Positions 3,586-20,600 of a stretch of DNA of 64,000 nucleotides are shown one piece after another. Both the position numbers and the translations under genes were made by a program. This DNA comes from Paramacrobiotus metropolitanus (lineage: Eukaryota > Tardigrada > Eutardigrada > Parachela > Macrobiotidae), in NCBI RefSeq assembly GCF_019649055.1, contig NW_026570267.1, positions 620,001 through 684,000 of the forward strand, read 5' to 3'. The notes under the pieces were generated by a model, which saw only the letters and a program-made list of their open reading frames with translations, made no database searches and was not told the DNA's origin. Position 1 is the first letter of the stretch. Every line of letters begins with the position of its first letter.

Positions 3586-3815
3586 GGGGGCATCCATAAA
3601 TTACGTACGCAGAAAACCACGATTTTTTCACCCCTCCCTCCCCCTTCGTAGCGGTCCGTCACGTCTGCTTGAGCCCTCCCCCCTGGTTCGTTCAATCGTA
3701 ATACATGGAGCTGACCACCCCCTCCCCCTGGGTTCGTCGAGGCCGTCACAGCTTGTCACACTTTTTGGACCCCTCCCTCCCTGGTTCGCTGCGTACGTAA
3801 TTTATGGATCCCCCC
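3586..3815. mobile_element. Harbinger-like MITE, 230 bp, TTA target duplication
   Basis: The ends are inverted copies: GGGGG, one variable base, then ATCCATAAATTACGTACGCAG on the left (from 3586), and its complement on the right (to 3815). TTA flanks the element on both sides (3583-3585 and 3816-3818), which fits the TWA target duplications and G-rich tips of PIF/Harbinger DNA transposons. The interior has no coding frame. It is C-rich and carries three spaced copies of a CCCTCCC..CTGGTTCGT-like module. The size and lack of a transposase fit a non-autonomous MITE. The family name is inferred from tip and target-site features only. Confidence 0.75.
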
Positions 3816-4385: not shown

Positions 4386-7300
4386 ATGAGCGCCGCAGGC
4401 GAGAACGCGATTAAACGAATCGATGAGGATTCCAGACACCAAATTTCGTCGGGAACAGTCATCGATTCATTGGCAACAGGTAAAGACCGAGTGTTGTTTG
4501 TAGGCTCGAGTAGGAAGTTTCGACTTCGCTGACGTACATTTTTTGTGCATTTGTAGCGGTTAAGGAACTGTTGGAAAACAGCCTTGATGCTGAAGCTACT
4601 GCAGTTGGTATGTAAACAACAAACAAACGTTACAAATTCAAATGAAAACGTATGAAAAATTAAAATTCTACGGTTAAATTCATTTCCCTGCTGTTTGGTA
4701 GAGATTCGGTTAACAGACCATGGCACGGAATGCATCGAGGTATCTGATAATGGCCATGGAATTGCGGAAGAGGATTTTGGTGCACTGGGTAAGAGACAGC
4801 TTATCCAAAAAAATCCTGTTATTAAAATTTGGAAAGTTCTGTGCTTAAATAGTTAAATTAAAATATTTTTTTAGCGTTAAAGAGTCATACCTCGAAAATT
4901 ACGGAGTTTGATGACTTGACTACTGTGGAAAGCTTTGGATTTCGCGGCGAGGCAATCAGTGCTTTGGCAGCCTTGGGGTAAATAATTTGTGCATCGTTAT
5001 TTGATTCACAAAACCATCCTGGGATGTGCAAACTGTTTAACTTATTTATTATTTTACATTTATCTATAGCTATAAAATTTAAAACAAATTTAATTTTTAA
5101 ATTAAATTAAATTTTTTTGGGGGAATTGGTATTCTAAAATAATTGCAGGGATCTCAGTGTGCAAACAAAAACCAAAGATATGTCAGGCGCGTATGTCCTG
5201 AAATTCAATCGAAAAGGGGAATTGATCGAAAGGAAGCCTGCTACCCGAAATGTGAGTGACTGAGAAATCAGTAGTTAAGCACTTTTTATGTGAAAAACGA
5301 ATGTCTTATTTCTTCTAGGTGGGCACAACGGTTACAGTGCGACATCTGTTTGCAACGCTTCCGGTACGACGTGATCAATTCGTGCAGAATACGAAAAAGG
5401 AGCTCTTGAGACTGACTCGCACTCTAAACAGCTACGGAGTGATCGGCAGCGCCAGACTGTCCTGCGTTGACTTCGTCAGTGGGTAAGTATTCACGCTTGC
5501 ACAGTACTGTAATTATACCGGTAAACGATTGATTATCTCTTGGTAATTTTTTTGCTATAGGAAAACCATAAATTTGCTTCGCCTGAATGGACGAACTGAT
5601 ATGTTATGCAACATTCGCGAAATATTTCCGGCTGCAACGGTAAAAACGGTGGCAAAAATCGATAGGAAGGACAATAAATATGGCTTACTTATGTGGTAGA
5701 ATGTGGAATAGCTGATGTCTGTACTTATGCATTGGTAAAACCATAAAAGAGAATTCAGTGGGGAGGTTTACTTTGTCCTAGTTTATTTTTGTTCTTGCCT
5801 CAGGCAAATAACTTGGTACCTTTGCGCACCAGCGTGCCCAATCAGGAAATCTTGGATGAATACGGAATTCATGACATGAAAACCATTGAGTCATATGATT
5901 TGCAAGGCTGGATATCCAGCGCCAAGCAAGGTGCGAGCCGCAGTTCCAGTGATCAGCAGTTCCTGTATTTCAACAGGAGACCCTGTGAACATCCAAAAGT
6001 ACTGCATATATCTGGATTCTGTCTTTCGCGAAGGAGCATGAGCATGTGTTCATCCATGAATTTGTTTTTGCAGATCGTGAAACTAATCAACCAAGTTTAT
6101 CGTGAATACAACACTAAAGAGTATCCCTTTTTCGCTATTAATATCCAACTGGAACGGAAGAAAATCGATATTAATATTGTTCCGAATAAGAATCAAGTGA
6201 TGGTGGAGGATGAAAAAGTTCTGTTGGCAGTTCTGAAGGTTTGCTTCGTGAAATGCTTGAAAACAGGACTACTTTTGAGAAGTTTGTTTTTTTCACCCCA
6301 GGCCTCACTGCGGCAGACTTTCCAAGATCTCCTAGCAAATATTCCTCTGAAAACTCTGCCCGCGAACATGCAAGCAAAGCCCAACGCACTTTCTCAGGCT
6401 TCTAATCCAACCAGCCCTGCTCTGCTCGATAAAACTTTTGGTACAAAGAAATTCTTCGAATCATTGCGTTTTGGTACCAAACCAACCGATACCGGAGTCA
6501 AGCGTGTGAAAAATCCACTGCATTCTCCACTCGGCTCAAACTCAAAGGGTATTTTAATTACTACTATTTTTTCTTCGAGTTAACTGTCCATATCAGGTTT
6601 TTTCTAGCGGTAGTATTTATTCTAATCTAAGCTCACGCGGGGGTCATGAACTGTACAAAAATGTGGAAAATTCTGTAAGCGATCTAGCAGGAATTATTTG
6701 GAATATTTTCTGTAAGTAAACTGCTGAAGCGGAAGTCCTTGTGAAAGATATGGGTTCAGATAATTAAAATTATTATTCAGATAATTCAAATTATTTACAA
6801 TTGCTTGACGGTTTGTCAATTTATTAACTAGGTAACTTTAAGTATTTAGCGTGAGTTCTTTTGTTTTTTATAGCAAAGCGTCCGAAAGAGAACTCTATTG
6901 TGGAACAGGCACCGTCTGTCGGATCAAGAATTACCGATTATTTGACCAAATTCCCCGTGATAACTTTGGATCCACCTTTCGCAGAGTCATCTTTTGGATC
7001 ACAAATCCAGGATACCGTATCAGTTATTGACGAGGCCGAAGTGACACGAAAGAAATTGGGGTTTGGACGTGAAATACAAGAGACGGAATCGGTTATTGGA
7101 ACGCAGCGCGTAACCAGTCAGCCGATATTCAGTCAGTTTTCCACACCGGCTCCTGCAGACGCGAAAAATTCTGGCAAACAGAAAAGCTTTGGGGAATTTC
7201 ATCCACTAGGATTTGATTCCGTGAAAACTCCGCGTGCGGAAAGTCCTACCGGTTTTGGATGTTTTCGTTTCCCTGCCTTGGGGAATTCTCGCTCTGGAAA

Positions 7301-10300
7301 TGCTGCGCTGCCGCTGCGAACCACCACGGGATCTAGTGAGGAAGTGGTTGTCGACGGATCGGGTATAAGACTCACTATAAAACATCCAAAAATTCCCGAT
7401 GGTTTTACTACTGCCTTGGATGAAATGCGGAAACGTGAAATTGAAGGTACTTAATATTGATTAGCAACATTACATAAGTGCTATTAGCTCCCCTGTGGCT
7501 CAAGTTCTGTAAATTTTAACCTTTACGAATGCAAATAACGATGATGCGATTAACTGCATACGTGGATACCTACCGGGTTTGAGTTGTTAGATCCATTGTT
7601 TCAGTGTGGATATGCTGTACGAAATTGGTTAAGACGACAGGAAACGGTTCTCACTGGCTACTTTTTTGTGCTGTAGGAGTTCCCCCTGAAATCGACGCAG
7701 TTGAAGCGCAACTGAAAGAAGACTTGGAGGCACTGGAGGCCGAAGTAACCCAAGAAGTGCTCGCCGACACAACGTCTGTTGACCTTTCAACAAACATTAA
7801 CAGTAGCCTAAATGAAGATGCTGATATCTCACGTGTTACCACTGAAATTAAGGTGAAACCAAAGTATTATTTCATTCGCAGCATTCAGTATCTTTTCAAA
7901 AACCTGCGTGGATTTTAGACGGGTGCCGTTATGGAGACTATCGACGAAGACTTGCAGAATAATTATCAGCGATCAGGTACGTTAAACGGATTGAAGACCG
8001 CACTATTCTAAGGTAAAACTATGGAAAAAATGAAACGGTTTGTGTCTAATCAGCGAATACATTTTAACTGTTGGTTACAGAAATTGTCAGCGTTACGCGC
8101 AATAAGGTCTTTGAGCCTTCGGTCAACAGTTCTGCAGTGATAAATTGTAATGATCTCGCTGTGACAAGCGATTGCGTGCTGGATAGCTCCAGTTTGGTGC
8201 GGAAACGCGTGAGTAGCAAGAAGCCAGCAAGTCCTGGAAAAGCTGTTGATCACGAGACTGACAGGGACAAGCCCATCGGCACGGTAAGCAGTCACTAAGC
8301 ACCAAGTTATCCGAATGCTTTTTTAGCCGACCACCGCCGGGTATCGATGTGTTTATACAGATCCCTGGGAAGCGGTCCGCCGTTCCCATTCCATCGTCTC
8401 ACCTGTCACTGGAACGCATTCAAGCTAGCCGTATTAAGGGTAATTATAGCTCACCTTTGCCCCCGGGTATTCACTTGCCATTGATTACAATTTACAGGGA
8501 AACGCAATTTTAATACCTTTTTATTTAGCGGGAGGAGATCGGAGCCGATCGATACAAAATGCGGAGGCTGGTCACTTTCGGGCCGGCATTGTGCCCACAC
8601 AGAATGAAACCGCTGAGGGGGAACTGCAGAGAAATATAAAGAAAAGCGATTTTCAGAGAATGGAAATCATCGGACAGGCAAGTGTGTCTTTTGTTTACAA
8701 AATGAAAAACAGGATGATGAACAGAATGACTGCTTTAGTTTAACGATGGGTTCATCATTGTTCGTCTGGATTTGGATGTGTTCATCATTGATCAGCACGC
8801 TTCCGACGAACGCTATAATTATGAGAAGCTTCAACAGAATTACACGGTTGACAGCCAAAGAATGGTTTGGTAAGAGCATAATTTAACAAATAAGAATTGT
8901 AAACACTGGTGCTAAGACTGTTGCATCTTTTGAACAGATCTCTTAGTTTTTGTGAAAATTGAACGAGAATGATTCACAGGTGTTTCGAGGTTTGGTTTTC
9001 CCCGCTATCGTTATGACCCGAAACAAAAACTAAACATTTGCACTCTTAGCCAGCGTATCATACAGAAAAATTTTTTGATTGAGTTTTCCCTTCTTAGCGG
9101 CAGCCAAATTTAGTAAACTTTTGCGGATACATTGTATCCCCATTTGTGATGTATTAGCGCGATATAAACTTATCCAACAGGCAGTTGAACAACTTATGGC
9201 ACATTGTGCCGTTAGAAACGCCATATCTAAACGGGAAAGGTTTATGTGCCTTTTTCCCTAATAAAAGTTGAATTACTGTGTGAATTTTATTTCCATGAAA
9301 TCTATTAATCTTCATTACGAATGCTTTCCGAAATTTGGGTCTTGGCTTACCATTTGCTATTGCACTTTACTTAGTGTGTGTGATGACTCGTGAAAGCTCC
9401 ATTAACTTAACCGGAAATATGATCTATGGGTTTGCCTACTGACAATATGACATCTGTTTGATTTAGTGCAGACTAATATTTTTGAATTTAGTGGGATGCA
9501 TATTTAGGATATCCGATGAAAAATTGGTCAAACAAAATATGCACACTGGAGTATTGTACTCTTATCATTTCCTGTGTACCACAGTGGTGTGGGACGCGGC
9601 CGGGTGTTGTGGCTTTCGGTTTGCGAATCGATATGGCATTGTGCCGGCATTCCCTTTTCGGTGTTCCGGCTTTTACCCCTTGTCCTGATCACTTCCGTGT
9701 TACAAAATTTATCAATATGCGTGACGGATATTTATACGTTTGCCGCTTTGTTAGTTCACGCTACATTTTGTGTAGTTCGTTTTCTCATGCCACGCGATCT
9801 CCTGATTCGGGTGATTTACACTGGTACTTCTTTTATTATACCACCAGGGAAAGGTTAGGGAACACCGGTTGGTTAATCGAGAAAACGGATATTTCGAGAA
9901 GTCTCGAAGAAGTCTCGTTTTAGCCTTTTAGGACGAATAAGTTTGGCGAAGTAGTATACGCTTTGTGACGGTGGACTGACAATGACAAAGATTCTTGAGT
10001 GTTTGCAATAATATGCAATTTACAGTTTGATATTATAGTACTTATTAACCGTATTGGCAGGGTACACATACAGTTGAGATGCGATGCAATGCTTGACGGT
10101 TACAGTGCATTAAGTAAGTACACAAATACGAATTTACTGTAGGCGGTTGCATATTTTGAGACAGCCGAATTTTTCCCATATGTTTTTTTATAAATATCTT
10201 GCGGAGAAACCGCGTAAAATGGACTGTGATATAACCCCCAATCCCCCCACCAATCCGCCGTCGCCGAACATAAAATGCGAACGGATATGTTTTTCAGACC

Positions 10301-13300
10301 GTTGCACATGGCTTGTTTAGAACGGTAGCAACTGAAACAAAAGAGGAGAGATCACCACCGCATGATGATAATTATACAAATGTAGTCGGAAATTAAGCAC
10401 GAAGTTGATAAGTATTGCATTTAAGCGGTGCTGTGTTTTGTGAATTACGGGAAATGGAAATTCAGCGTAGTTACTGTCAGGTGTGCGGTGGCATGTGATA
10501 TCGTGTTTAATGATTATTTTTATCAGTCCATAAACTGAGTTGTCCGAATCAGTCCGATTCTCTGTTTTTTCTCGCATGGAGTTCCGCTGCAGGCTTCTTA
10601 GCGTACTTGTGAATTAAGTTTTTTGGACTTTGGCTTCGTATGTGTGAAATCGAAATTATTGACCTAATCTTTTGCATTGCACGTGTCCTGATTCTGGCGA
10701 TATGTTTTCGCGTTTCGACACTGACAGGAAACGGGCTGTGGAAATATGAGGATCACTTGGCATAGACACCGGTAGTCATCAATGATTAAATATAGCCTGT
10801 GACGTTCAGCAATTATTGATTGTTTGATCAGCTTAATCATGCCTGGCTGCATTACGGGAAGTGAAGTAGCAAGTGTGAAAAACAAACTGAATTACTTATT
10901 ACGTAAATGTGATCACGGCCTGCCGCGTTCAAATAGGTACAAACAACAAGCAGAATCACACGTTGTCCTTTTCGGTTTCATTGACGCTGCTGTACATGTG
11001 TAGCTTTTTACAGTAGTTCGAATTGCGTGCGCAATTTAAATCTGAGTCAATAAAAGTATATGAAAATTGTTTAGAAAAACATCTGGAAGTGGTTATCGCG
11101 GAAAGCAGGTTGAAGTAAAAAAGAAAGGGGTGTTCTACGTTTTAGCTGGTAAATTGAACAGCGCATTAGCATCGTAGGGTAAATTTTTAAACGGTGATCC
11201 ATCAGCATTCCATCCAGTTTTGAGAGTTTCGGCTAGGTGTACCTGATCACTAGTAGGTTTTCCCTGAGCCTTAGCCTGCTGATCATGGATCATTTTTCTC
11301 ACCAGTTGCTGTTCGTCAGTTTTCATATCCTGGAAGGAAACTTCCGCGTTGATATGTTCGAGGTCAATTTTTCCTTGTCCCTCAATCAAACAGTTCCACC
11401 ATTCTTCCGTAATTTTCTCCAGCGTCATTTGAATGTACTCCGCCGGTACAAGTATCCACATCGATTCCGCTGAATTTATTGGGCGATGAAACGGGCCTTC
11501 CAGAAGAATATCGCCGGTATCCTTCACAGAAATGCGCACATGTGTGCCTGTCAGCTCCACATTCAGCTGTTTAGACTTTGTGACAGATTTGGGAACGTGA
11601 ATCTTCACATCAAGATCATGCAGGGTCTGGTTCCAGGAGTATTTGTCATGTACGGCTCCATTGCCGGGGTCATCGGCATGTTGGGCCGTTATGGTGGGAA
11701 TAGAGCGGGTTTCGCCGGTCTCGGGGGATGTCACACCGTGTTCAGTGTGAATTTTGATGGTTGGATTGGCGGCTGGCGGTGCAGAAGAACTGGGAGATTT
11801 TTCCCGATGCGCCATGCGATCGTAACGTTGAAAAGAGTTTTTTACCAAATTCTCCGCGGTACCCGGTAGAAATCCGCTTTTGCCGTCCGGCGACAGGGAA
11901 TGAAAGAAATCGGTTTTCCGGTATAGGAATCCAAAAATAACGTCCAAAAACGGCGCTATTTGACCTTCGTTATTCAGAATACCAGATAGAGTTTCATCAT
12001 ACAATGCCAGCTTTCCGTGGGACATGGCCTGTTATAAGAATATTCGGGAAGTACGAGTATACTTCAATGGCCACTAATGAAAAGTTGGGCGGAAAGTTAG
12101 CGTGGCACCGACTTATCCCAAATTTCCTGGGCGCATGTGTTCAGTCTTGAGGCAGTAGACAGGGATGATTACTTCAGCAGTGTATGGAGGACAATTTGAT
12201 TAATCTTACACAAATGGTCGGCTGCGGCTGTGGAAGAGGGAACGGTTATCCGGTTGTTATTTTGACATTACTGACAGAGCAATGTTTGAATGCAACTCCG
12301 CATGGGCGCCTGTGAATTGGGCAGTTGAGTAATCAAGAAACACTATGAAACCAAGCGAACAACTTCGTTAAAGAATACTTGTCGGAAATGCTCAAATTAT
12401 CCTGGCCAGAATTAATCTGACAGGGCGCACAACACAGCACATATGTGCCGGCGAAATTAAACGCGGCTCAAGTGCTATTCTTTGAGCGGAAAATGGATGC
12501 ATGTGCTGAAGATTGATCGGTGGTGTCGTCCTTTCGCTGCCCCGTTGTGTAAAAGTTATGTACGATGCGAGTGTGTGTACTAAAATATATCATCCATCAG
12601 TCAGTGGCTTTTAACAGCATCCGCCAAAAATATCGCTGACACGGTCTGAGCCCGCGGATAGGGTTTTTAGCGGGTTATGGATTCGACACTGGTTCGGAGT
12701 CAATAGGCAGAGTTGGCATCCCTCGCCTCCGCAGTGGTTGTCCTTCTGCAGCTGTAAGGGAAATAGGATGGCTTGAGCCTTGAGGGGCGTTTTACCAACA
12801 TCGCAGCTATGTATTTACACTTTCGGTTACAGGAGAGTGTACGTCGCCTGCCAAAAAACTTATCACAGCGTATAATATATCGCACAGAAAATCCACCTTA
12901 TTCTTTTTGGGCGAATACCATACTTTTATAAACTGTTACGAGTACTCGTATGGCCTATACGTCAAGGGGTCCAGAACCGACTCGGACCTGCTTTTTAATT
13001 TTAAGTACTCACTTTAATTATGATGGGCTTATTTATGGCGAGTGCCTGGTGTCATAAATGTGACTGTGTGAATGTTGCCAACCCTCGATGCGCTGCATCT
13101 GCTGCGTTTCAGATTTAAAATCCTATAAAGTGCATGATTATTTGATAGCGAGATGATAAATATTGCATGACCAGATCGACAGAGTATCCTACATTGCTGA
13201 AAATTTGAATTAAATTATGGTTACTGAACTTGTACATTTGTTTGCATTGGGATTGGGCAAAGAGTTGCACGCAGTGCACTGTGTCAGATAATACCAGTGA

Positions 13301-15587
13301 CAGATATTTTTAGAGTGGCTTAACAATTTCGAATAAGCTGGCTGTTTAAAATTGTTTGTTCACACACATGTTGTAAAAACTACAGACTGATTGCCAATAT
13401 GATTTAGCTGGTGAAAATTTAGAAGATGTGAATCAAATCATCGTAACTACAAATATAATAATCGTAAAACGAGCGTGGTATTTTACTCATCTTCAGCTGT
13501 ATGGTCGAATTCTCATTTGTTTGTGTTCTACCAGGGTTGTCACGCGGTAAGCGAATTGTGAGACTTACCTCCACCAGTGGTAATCCTGCGCTTACTTGAC
13601 GATAGGAAATCCGTAGAAGATGTCTATCACCAGCGATTAAAGATGGCCTTGCTTATTCAAAACGCCCGCTCACAGTCAGAAGTGTCTTGTGCTACGGTAG
13701 ATTTAAATTTAGTGTTGGTTAAAAGTTTTTGGGAAGGAAAGTTTTTAGATTGCTTAGAAACGCTTGTACCTGAAACTGATAAAGTACCGTACATACGTGC
13801 AGTAGTTGATAATCATTCAGTCAGTTTCATCGAGTTAATATGGAACCAGAATGTTACAGCGACTCTTTAAATGAATTTAATTTTCTTCGGGTAATGAAGA
13901 GAAACAAAGTGATAGAGCTGATGAAATAATAAAACAATTTGACGTACTGTAGTTAACATATATTTTTACGAGCAGCATTTACTCGGCGGCGAATCGGCGC
14001 TTGTGCCGGCTTATGCCCGGCTACCAGTGCGCGCGCAGATAAAGGGCGCCAGCATCTGGGTTCCTTTACGTTTGCTATACCCAAAAGCTACGAGTAGAGA
14101 AATTTGTGTTGAAGGCTATAGGTGAATGATCGTCCTGTGGTCAACTTATTCCACATTAAGTACTTAATAATCCGACATTGATTGCCGGTTAAATTCATGG
14201 TCAACTGGTGATTTGCGATAAAACTTCTTCTTAACTAATGCTTTAGAAAAATGAGTTGGTATTACTAGAAATGGATAAACTTAACTGGTTAAGAAATGTG
14301 TTCAGCGTGTTTATTAGGTTGGCATATTCAAAACCCCTGTTTCGATTGTTTTACTGTTAAGAAATTGTTTGATGTCGTGTATGGCTTAGCGATTGCGTTA
14401 GATATAATGTCTGTGGACTGTGAGTCATTGAAAATGATATAATTTATAAAAAAGCGGAAAGTTGTTGCTATTTTTAAAGCAATTGTGTACTATATTGCAG
14501 TTATTATTAATTGTGATAATGCTGTGACTATGCACGGCGTTTATTTTAGTTCGCTCCCGTTGGATCTGAACCCTACTGAAGAGGCCATCCTGCTCGAAAA
14601 CAGACACGTATTTCAGCAGAGCGGGTTTGATTTCATAGTTAATCCCGGTTAGTCAGTTAATAAGAATATATCAACAAGATTTTCGTAAGACGCGTTGCTG
14701 GGAATTAGCGCGTAATTATATGGATTCCGGAATGCAGTCTGAGTAGGAGTACATTATTACGCAGCGTCTTTTATACTTTTGTGTATGTTCCAGATGCTAC
14801 CACGAAAAGAGTATCTTTGTGCGCGGTTCCCATCAGTCACAACATGACCTTTGGCAAAGAAGGTAGGTTGTCAACATTTAATTAAAATGGAAAATTGACA
14901 GCACATTTACATAATAGTTGTTAAAACGAAGTTATATGGGAAAAGCTGCCTTAATTTGTGTCGCTTTTAGACGTAATGGAGATGCTGCATTTATTAGAGG
15001 ATGCACAGGTACTTAAAAGCTGAATTGGTAGTGGCTTAAATGCCCGCTGAACTGTTAAACATTTTATATGTTAATTGGAGGGTAATAAATCAGGCTTGTT
15101 GTGCATATTTGCTGAACTACTAAATGAATTTAGCGGCTAATGTGCTTTAACATGTCTACGTTGTAATGACATGGAAACTCCATAATTTTGACAATTAGAT
15201 ACTTCACTGTATTTTGTTTGAAGGGAATCAATGTTAGACCAACACGACTCCTGCAGCTCCTAGCCAGCAAAGCGTGCCGCAAATCTGTTATGATTGGCAA
15301 GCCACTAAATTCCTTTGAAATGAAAACAGTAAGATACGATCGAGAATTCCCAAGTCACTTTTACAAGCGCACTCATTAATTATTTGTTCTGCAAATGGTG
15401 CATTACGTTGTAGATTGTTTCTCACATGGCAGACCTCAAGGAACCATGGGTAAGAGATCGAAAGGTCGGTCTTTCAAATGATCGGTACGTTAAGATTGCT
15501 CACTTTTAGAGATGTGCTCATGGACGACCGACGATGCGGCATCTGTTCAACATCGACGACTTGGAGAATTTAGGAAAGAATATGTAA
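4386..15587 (+). CDS. PMS2: Mismatch repair endonuclease PMS2
   Basis: MutL-family subunit that pairs with MLH1 to form MutL-alpha and nicks DNA during mismatch repair in the nucleus. The 23 exons are 4386-4479, 4557-4607, 4702-4788, 4875-4977, 5149-5251, 5319-5482, 5561-5639, 5804-5998, 6074-6238, 6302-6548, 6874-7446, 7677-7852, 7919-7976, 8081-8283, 8361-8439, 8529-8677, 8739-8869, 14550-14647, 14794-14862, 14971-15008, 15224-15328, 15414-15449 and 15510-15587. All phases agree and give 1026 residues. GHKL ATPase motifs: ENSLDA (38-43), DNGHG (64-68), GFRGEA (99-104). Endonuclease metal motifs are complete: [12 protein letters not shown] (860-871), ACRK (971-974), CAHGRP (1003-1008). The linker is longer than in human PMS2 (about 860 residues). 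One intron uses a GC donor (8678); another spans 8870-14549 and contains NUDCD3 on the other strand. Confidence 0.95.
11135..12025 (-). CDS. NUDCD3: NudC domain-containing protein 3, single exon
   Basis: Hsp90-associated cochaperone of the NudC family that stabilises dynein intermediate chain in the cytoplasm. An uninterrupted 296-residue frame from the ATG at 12023-12025 to the TAG at 11135-11137. The N-terminal NudC dimerisation motif includes [11 protein letters not shown] (about 31-41). A variable Ser/Pro linker follows, then a p23/CS domain at about 129-217 with EGPFHRPIN and [10 protein letters not shown]. The C-terminal GWNADGSPF and ALFNL stretches match the family tail. Length is somewhat shorter than the human protein (361). 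It lies wholly within a PMS2 intron on the opposite strand and has no introns, unlike nearly every other gene here. That could reflect a retrocopy or intron loss; the frame is intact, so it is probably functional. Confidence 0.92.
   Translation of the reverse strand: MSHGKLALYDETLSGILNNEGQIAPFLDVIFGFLYRKTDFFHSLSPDGKSGFLPGTAENLVKNSFQRYDRMAHREKSPSSSAPPAANPTIKIHTEHGVTSPETGETRSIPTITAQHADDPGNGAVHDKYSWNQTLHDLDVKIHVPKSVTKSKQLNVELTGTHVRISVKDTGDILLEGPFHRPINSAESMWILVPAEYIQMTLEKITEEWWNCLIEGQGKIDLEHINAEVSFQDMKTDEQQLVRKMIHDQQAKAQGKPTSDQVHLAETLKTGWNADGSPFKNLPYDANALFNLPAKT
13562..13870 (+). CDS. Small intronic open frame with poly(A) signal, unrecognised
   Basis: A plus-strand frame within the PMS2 intron, open from 13562 to TAA 13868-13870. 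It has no early ATG (first Met at 13642), so if real it is a terminal exon or an N-truncated copy. The encoded sequence looks protein-like, for example [17 protein letters not shown], then [15 protein letters not shown], then [10 protein letters not shown], with well-spaced hydrophobic residues. AATAAA follows at about 13926. Codons are AT-rich (many TTA, GTA and TTG), unlike the flanking genes. It is not an expected PMS2 exon, because the known family alignment is continuous across the junction. It may be a fragment of a gene copied into the intron. Confidence 0.35.
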   Translation, partial: DLPPPVVILRLLDDRKSVEDVYHQRLKMALLIQNARSQSEVSCATVDLNLVLVKSFWEGKFLDCLETLVPETDKVPYIRAVVDNHSVSFIELIWNQNVTATL

Positions 15588-17660: not shown

Positions 17661-20600
17661 ATGCCTAAGGAGCTGTTAACACTGCAGTGTGGCCATTATG
17701 CGAATTTTGTGGGGACTCATTTCTGGAACTTGCAGGTACTAGTTGCACTGCCAGAACGCGCAGCTGACATTCGCGCAGGCAGTGGCTGTGTGTTTTCTAC
17801 ATTTCTCATCACAGGAAGCTGGATTCTCCTACAATCCTCAACAGCCAACAAGCAAGGAGATAGATGTCGGTGTTTTGCACCGCGAGGGTGAAACGTTACG
17901 GGTGAGTATTTGTGAAAATGGATGGCAGGCTAAGGAATGCCCTGTTGCATTTGCATTATGCATGCGTTTGCAGGGCGAACCGACATTTACGCCTCGTTTG
18001 GTGCTGTGCGATCTCAAAGGTAGCCTGAACAGTTTGCAGGCAAATGGGGGATTGTATGATGATGGATATCACGAGAAAACCAATTCGGAATCTTTGTCTT
18101 GGTAATTCGGAATCGGTTGATTTTGTATCGATGCTTGAATTGCTTGTATAATTTACGTGGGTTCTGTTATGCGTTGTTAGGAATGGGCCGGTGACAGCAT
18201 TGAAAATTAATGATGTGAAACCCAATAAATATATTGAAGAAGTCCGGAAACTCCAGGTAATACCGCAGTTATTGAGATCATCAATTACACTTTAATTTTA
18301 TTTATGACTTACGCTGGTATTTCTCTCTACTTACCCATTTGATTGCGGATTTGTTTATTTATTCATGTTGACATGCTGCATAGGTTTGTGTATTTTGCAT
18401 GATTGTTGTGTTATGGGTTAGAATCTGTTTCAGTTAAAAATCTTTTAACATTACAAAATAATTATCGGATATTGTTAAGTCGTTTCACGCCACATTTGGG
18501 CACTGTGATAATTTAGTGATAATACTTTTTTTTTCTGGTATTTCCTTTAAGAAATCATGATTACTTTGATCAATTTAGTAACAATACTTTTTTCCACAGA
18601 ATGCTGACTGTACGATAATTAAAACTGAGAAATTCTAAATTTTCGGCTTTTAGTAGCATTACAAATAGTTACACAATTGTTTTGCTCAAATTTTGAATAT
18701 TTTAAGCACTTGCTGGACGATATTACATTTTAGCAGTGGAATAGTAAAGATAGTACGAATACTTACAGAATTTCGGTAAATTAGATGAAAGTGGTCAACA
18801 ACTACGGTAATTGTGGCATTAATATTATGGAAATGCAAATTTTAATTGCCGCTTACTGGGGGAATTTTTTATGTCACTGTTTGTCATGTGTGAAATGAGA
18901 AGTTTAATGAATAATTACTGTTCTTTTAGAAAGCCGTCCCAGTGGTGGAGAATGAAATTCCCAAACGTCCCCGTCAAGCCGACTACCAGCTGGAGGAAAG
19001 TGTGAGCACATGGAGCGATTTCCTGGGAGTTCTGCTGCATCCCCGGTCCATAGTGTCCCTGAAAAACTACTGGCTCGAGTAAATTCTGCACTTAGACTCT
19101 GTGAGTCTTGATTTCGCATTACTCTCTGGTAATTTCATTTTTTTCTCCCCGGCCCAGTGATGCGCCGTCATTCGAATTATACGGTCTGGGATTAGAAGAG
19201 TATAAGCAGGCCGCGGTACGGGAACCACTGGAGAATAGCATACGCTATTTCGTGGAGGAATCCGACAATCTACAGGGCTTCCAGCTCTTATTGGATGCTG
19301 ATGATGGATTTAGTGGATTTACGGCAGCGCTCCTTGATCATCTGGCCGATGATTACCAGTCTAAACCCATACTGATGTATCCTCTCATCCCGACACCGGT
19401 GCTCCCGGCTGAAATTGTGAGGAGAAGCGATGTTTTTCTTCTCCTACAGTCTGGATAATCAATCCGACCTCTGATATTGTAATGAAATCGTTTTTCTCAC
19501 AGGATCCGCGGAAGGATTTTTATAGATTATTCAATTTGGCCTTGACTCTCGCCGGTTCTTCCGATGATAACAATTCCCACTGTCTCTCCGTGCCCTTGAG
19601 CGTCACTGCCAAGCTCACCCGACCAAAACAGTACTTGGATCAATTGCCTTACGTCCGGTTTCAGGTGAGAAGCGCTTTCGGAGTCGCCGCTTTTGGAGTA
19701 GAGCTGAATGCAGTCCATTTGAATACATTCTTGGTACTATTTTTGTAGCCCATTGCATATCATACGAGTGCCATTCTGGCCGGTGCAGTGGATTCGATTA
19801 GCGTGCTCAGTCGCCTTTCATCGGATGAACTGGTCCCACTACGGGATATTATCAGTGCCACTACCATCCATCAGCGCAAGGTGGGGAGAAATATTTCATT
19901 GATCTTGTTCCTTGACATATGATCCGATCATATTTGGTTATGTAAACATTTGATGCGCAGAAAAATGGTGTGCAAGAAAAAATCTGTGCATAAATTGCGA
20001 TGTTGTGATCGCAATTGATTCCGCTTCCTGTGCAGGGTTTTCTTTGCGCTTTCCCGTTAATCGAAATTTCCGTTTACCGTATCGATCTAAATGTTACCAA
20101 TTATTACATCATTGTCAGATTAGATGGCTTTGAATGTTTTTTTTGCTTGCTCTCGTGGCTGCTTCGTTAGCCGTTTAAGTGGAAGAAATCAGTTCCGTCT
20201 GAGTACGAAAGCACGTCAGCCTGATTTACACGGACCGGCATGATAAGTATGCTACAGAGGACGACTATAAATCTTTCCTGCAGTTTTCCTAGTTGAAAAC
20301 CGTCCGCAATAAATCAAAGCTTTCATAGCCAGACTTTTTGTTCAGGTTGCTGCCATGTCGACCATGATACCGTTTCCTCTGCGCGCCACGGATTCCTTGT
20401 TCAGTTCATTAAAAGCCATCGATGCAGAGTATCTTCCGGTTAGTTCACTGACTCCCCATGTCACTACACCACTGATCGATTCGCAAAATCGATGCTACTC
20501 CCAAGTGATGAGTCTACGTGGAATCCCTCAAGAACGCTGGAAATGGTAAGAATCATTTCCGACATGAGCGCGGTTTTTTCTCCCTCCTATGCTGTTTAAC

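Follow-up and report, generated by a model that had tools for sequence, protein, structure and literature searches.

How did a gene whose coding part lacks introns come to lie inside the one long intron of another gene, on the opposite strand, and does it work on its own there? Such an arrangement was encountered in the window considered here, a stretch of 64,000 nucleotides from the tardigrade Paramacrobiotus metropolitanus. The locus very probably represents a single-copy tardigrade orthologue of NUDCD3 whose coding sequence lacks introns and which lies in opposite orientation in an old intron of PMS2, working independently of this host gene. The features on which this reading is based are gathered in Table 1.

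The nested frame runs uninterrupted from its ATG through 296 codons. Pfam recognised an N-terminal NudC_N domain (Nudc_N, PF14050) at residues 9-66 (E 2e-21) followed by a CS domain (PF04969) at residues 128-204 (E 1.4e-13), which is the domain order expected of NUDCD3. The family assignment was considered settled by this domain match. The top PDB match was 1WGV (KIAA1068; E 4.5e-23, 85 bits), which we take to be NUDCD3 (NudC-like), while NUDC entries in PDB displayed E values of about 1e-12 and 50 bits or less; judged by these scores, the frame is closer to NUDCD3 than to NUDC. The intact NudC-family frame reported in the initial annotation was thereby recovered, Pfam and 1WGV both agreeing with NUDCD3. 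Domain order and CS-domain sequence resemble those of NUDCD3 from other animals. Human NUDCD3, in contrast, contains several introns.

Coding status was assessed against 300 simulated introns matched in length and dinucleotide composition, in which the longest stop-free run reached 248 codons (median 118). The codon usage of PMS2 preferred the NUDCD3 frame over the other five frames, and GC3 was 0.47 in both genes. As the frame was longer than every simulated run and was favoured by PMS2 codon usage, it was regarded as real and coding.

The host gene was rebuilt from its splice sites as 23 exons spanning 4386-15587 on the plus strand and forming a single open frame. Twenty-one of its 22 introns were 60-325 bp long and the remaining one measured 5,680 bp (median of all 22, 87.5 bp). 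The protein was 1,026 aa long with a GC donor at position 8678, versus 1,027 aa with an alternative exon 16 end, and the PDB search was run on the 1,026-aa version. Residues 6-354 matched the N-terminal domain of human PMS2 (1h7s/6mfq, E 1e-91), corresponding to the MutL N-terminal ATPase, and residues 820-1024 matched the C-terminal domain of yeast Pms1 (4e4w, E 1e-48). The exon 17/18 junction falls at about residue 886, inside the latter match. Since the frame is continuous and this junction lies within the MutL C-terminal domain, PMS2 was considered one gene across the 5.7-kb intron. A division into two separate genes, with PMS2 ending before 8.9 kb and another gene starting from 14.5 kb, had been named as the outcome that would overturn the nesting; it was ruled out at the sequence level by the continuous 1,026-codon frame and by the C-domain match over the junction. 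Intron 16 (8678-8738) was apparently of the GC-AG type (donor CAG/GCAAGT), and its junction reads MEIIGQ/FNDGFII, as in other PMS2 proteins.

Table 1. Position of NUDCD3, its host gene PMS2 and neighbouring candidate signals in the window
Feature	Position	Strand	Evidence or score
PMS2 exons 1-17 (16 introns, 61-325 bp)	4386..8869	+	splice-site rebuild, PDB match
PMS2 intron 17 (host intron), 5,680 bp, phase 2	8870..14549	+	splice-site rebuild
Sequence of ~240 bp just 3' of NUDCD3	10872..11107	.	one 71% identical copy at C7:702037-702280
NUDCD3 coding sequence in a single exon (296 aa; coordinates include the stop codon)	11135..12025	-	ORF, Pfam, PDB match, coding bias
Candidate splice acceptor directly before the NUDCD3 ATG (atattcttataacag/GCCATG)	12028..12043	-	2.4 bits
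Candidate strong donor GAG/GTAAGT upstream of NUDCD3, inside the host intron	13563..13571	-	9.2 bits
PMS2 exons 18-23 to the stop codon, introns 60-215 bp	14550..15587	+	splice-site rebuild, PDB match

The NUDCD3 coding sequence is entirely enclosed by the host intron in opposite orientation, and complete antisense nesting in the sole outsized intron of PMS2, as initially described, was thus borne out. It occupies 891 of the 5,680 bp (16%) and is surrounded by about 4.8 kb that is non-coding. Apart from NUDCD3, the host intron is devoid of recognisable genes. The longer intronic ORFs that were tested (e.g. 9492-9920 and 13562-13867, both on the plus strand) displayed neither a Pfam match over the cut-off nor coding bias, and a second gene in the intron was therefore rejected; ORF 13562-13867 also had no relative elsewhere in the assembly. 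Neither structured RNAs nor tRNAs were detected in the intron by Rfam or ARAGORN. In a search that skips very common words, both flanks of NUDCD3 were unique in the assembly except for the 240-bp stretch just 3' of the gene. Enlargement of the intron by a known repeat was rejected, as the flanks were unique apart from this stretch with its single other copy. Both copies of the 240-bp sequence share an AATAAA on the plus strand. Their two-sequence fold contained a single pair changed on both sides and was not convincing as a structured RNA.

The host intron splits PMS2 codon 886 in phase 2 (QRMV/C). Intron 12 of human PMS2 starts at c.2174+1 (PMC4521968). This position corresponds to phase 2 in codon 725 of the human gene. 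Codon 725 is taken here to be the A of QRLI/APQ, the residue aligned with the tardigrade C at the intron, and the following tardigrade PMS2 intron presumably lies within one residue of the human c.2275 boundary, in the same phase. The register between human and tardigrade introns is provisional. On this alignment, the host intron is probably ancestral and shared with human PMS2 intron 12, and NUDCD3 would have entered an existing intron. Because position and phase match, the intron is likely older than its guest. The earlier view that NUDCD3 landed in the intron and enlarged it was not upheld, given the small share taken by NUDCD3 and the coincidence with human intron 12.

Relatives of NUDCD3 were searched for in an assembly of 169.8 Mb in 533 contigs. 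The P. metropolitanus genome was reported as 170 Mb with an N50 of 1.0 Mb, and the published assembly is reported to have 72.9% BUSCO completeness (PMC11191345). According to protein and NudC_N searches, NUDCD3 is single-copy in this assembly, in which gaps and stretches of N exist. The second, intron-bearing NUDCD3 that the initial annotation proposed to look for was found by neither search; the intron-bearing relative was instead NUDC. This gene, located on contig C15, was the only other NudC_N gene in the assembly and displayed a typical NUDC C-terminus, with seven coding exons and six introns in its coding part (splice sites read by eye). Remaining CS-domain matches belonged to one DNAAF4-like and one CHORDC1-like gene (ORFs read by eye). 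Literature searches yielded nothing usable on NUDCD3 gene structure or on intron loss in tardigrades.

No T or A run of seven or more adjoins NUDCD3, and an old event could have erased such a tract. Similarly, the two flanks of the gene share no exact direct repeat of at least 11 bases, which may have decayed if old. Even flanks shuffled base by base had 11 or more bases in common in 76 of 200 trials, so that nothing points to a target duplication. Part of the initial proposal of a retrocopy or intron-loss allele accordingly stood, namely the coding sequence without introns, while an intron-bearing parent in the assembly, a poly(A) tract and a target-site duplication were all absent. Any retroposition must then be old, with the parent replaced or lost. 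A recent retrocopy, with an intact intron-bearing parent missing from an assembly of limited BUSCO completeness (PMC11191345), was rejected and is very improbable: neither the protein nor the NudC_N search returned an exon match to a second NUDCD3, and neither poly(A) nor target duplication was found. It is even more improbable that NUDCD3 was placed inside PMS2 by mis-assembly. The host intron is one stretch within a 1.06-Mb contig, unique apart from its 240-bp part, and contains no long repeat that would explain a false join.

Two other histories are left to be weighed. Spliced NUDCD3 mRNA may have been reverse-transcribed into the PMS2 intron, where the copy gained a promoter before its intron-bearing parent was lost; this is given roughly an even chance. 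It is favoured by the contrast between the intron-free NUDCD3 coding sequence and the NUDC gene of the same genome, which keeps its six coding introns, and by the fact that single-exon nested genes are usually ascribed to retrotransposition (PMC3933685). The marks expected of such an insertion are all absent, although decay could explain this. Alternatively, and more tentatively, NUDCD3 may have resided in the intron, or have moved there at the DNA level, and have lost its introns afterwards, for instance by recombination with cDNA. Its single copy and the absent retroposition marks are consistent with such an in-place loss, as is the non-coding sequence around the gene, which exceeds what insertion of a bare mRNA brings. 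On the other side, the joint loss of all coding introns is most easily achieved through an mRNA copy, and nothing positive points to an in-place event. Intron loss in NUDCD3 would thus reflect either an old mRNA-mediated relocation with later loss of the parent or a loss in place, which fit the observations about equally well.

Both ends of the NUDCD3 transcript could fit inside the host intron. Downstream of the stop codon, candidate AATAAA/ATTAAA signals on the minus strand were found at 10506, 9832 and 9286, all within the intron. Upstream, the candidate acceptor preceding the ATG was within the range of PMS2 acceptors (1.0-10.6 bits) but ranked only 41 of 261 AG sites. The candidate donor was the best on the minus strand upstream of the ATG, at a distance of 1.5 kb; by simple base counting, its hexamer is expected about 0.6 times per 2.5 kb by chance. 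Given the weak acceptor and this chance expectation, a spliced 5' untranslated region is just possible. The intronless state hence applies to the coding part of NUDCD3, and untranslated exons may exist.

In the arrangement preferred here, NUDCD3 would be transcribed from its own promoter within the upstream 2.5 kb of the host intron and its transcript would end within the same intron, while PMS2 would splice out the whole 5.7 kb. Both genes would act independently and through different products, a dynein/HSP90-type co-chaperone and a mismatch-repair endonuclease. Alternatively, the promoter region of NUDCD3 could also drive or repress PMS2, for example through an internal start giving rise to a short, C-terminal-only form. 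A precedent with a DNA-repair host exists in Caenorhabditis elegans, where the nested gene ceh-10 triggers a short transcript of its host polq-1 (PMC12274878), but this concerns another gene pair in another species, and such coupling, raised as a possibility in the initial annotation, is considered unlikely for NUDCD3 and PMS2. If true, a chaperone gene and a repair gene would be connected in an animal that tolerates desiccation.

The NUDCD3/PMS2 locus, independently working or not, is one more opposite-strand nested pair of an already known type. C. elegans contains 567 opposite nested pairs, amounting to 5% of its protein-coding genes (PMC12274878), and in Drosophila about 6% of genes lie within introns (PMC3786989). 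As a rule, internal genes are short, lack introns and are located on the opposite strand (PMC8467205), an orientation that is usual for nested genes of animals (PMC8467205, PMC12274878, PMC3786989). In many animals, a few percent of all genes are arranged in this way, so the present case is essentially ordinary. Like NUDCD3, ceh-10 is a protein-coding gene fully included in an intron of a DNA-repair gene on the other strand. In Drosophila, 2mit likewise lies in opposite orientation in intron 11 of timeless2, a gene linked to chromosome stability (PMC3786989); 2mit comprises two exons and has been documented as nested in many species, whereas NUDCD3 has one coding exon and its nesting is known here from one genome. 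The LRRTM genes are also found on the opposite strand in alpha-catenin introns, and their intronless state was proposed to result from retroposition (PMC3933685). Their nesting is ancient in vertebrates; that of NUDCD3 in PMS2 was seen here in one tardigrade genome.

Loci of this kind deserve care in annotation, as gene predictors may merge NUDCD3 and PMS2 or drop one of them, and unstranded RNA-seq would mix up their counts. If nesting and intronless state were to vary among tardigrade species, such a comparison would reveal when the event took place and whether relocation and intron loss went together.

Some minor observations were made around PMS2 and elsewhere in the assembly. Just downstream of PMS2, an exon of a misato-like gene was found at 17743-18102 (Misat_Tub_SegII, E 3.3e-11). 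Upstream of PMS2, a C-rich segment at 3590-3810 with near-palindromic ends (ATCCATAAATTACGTACG ... CGTACGTAATTTATGGAT) resembled a small mobile element when inspected by eye. SAHS proteins are known from tardigrades, and a SAHS-like cluster was encountered on contig C3 at about 446-467 kb. It consisted of several two-exon matches arranged in tandem on a single strand, with up to 64% identity to a SAHS query.
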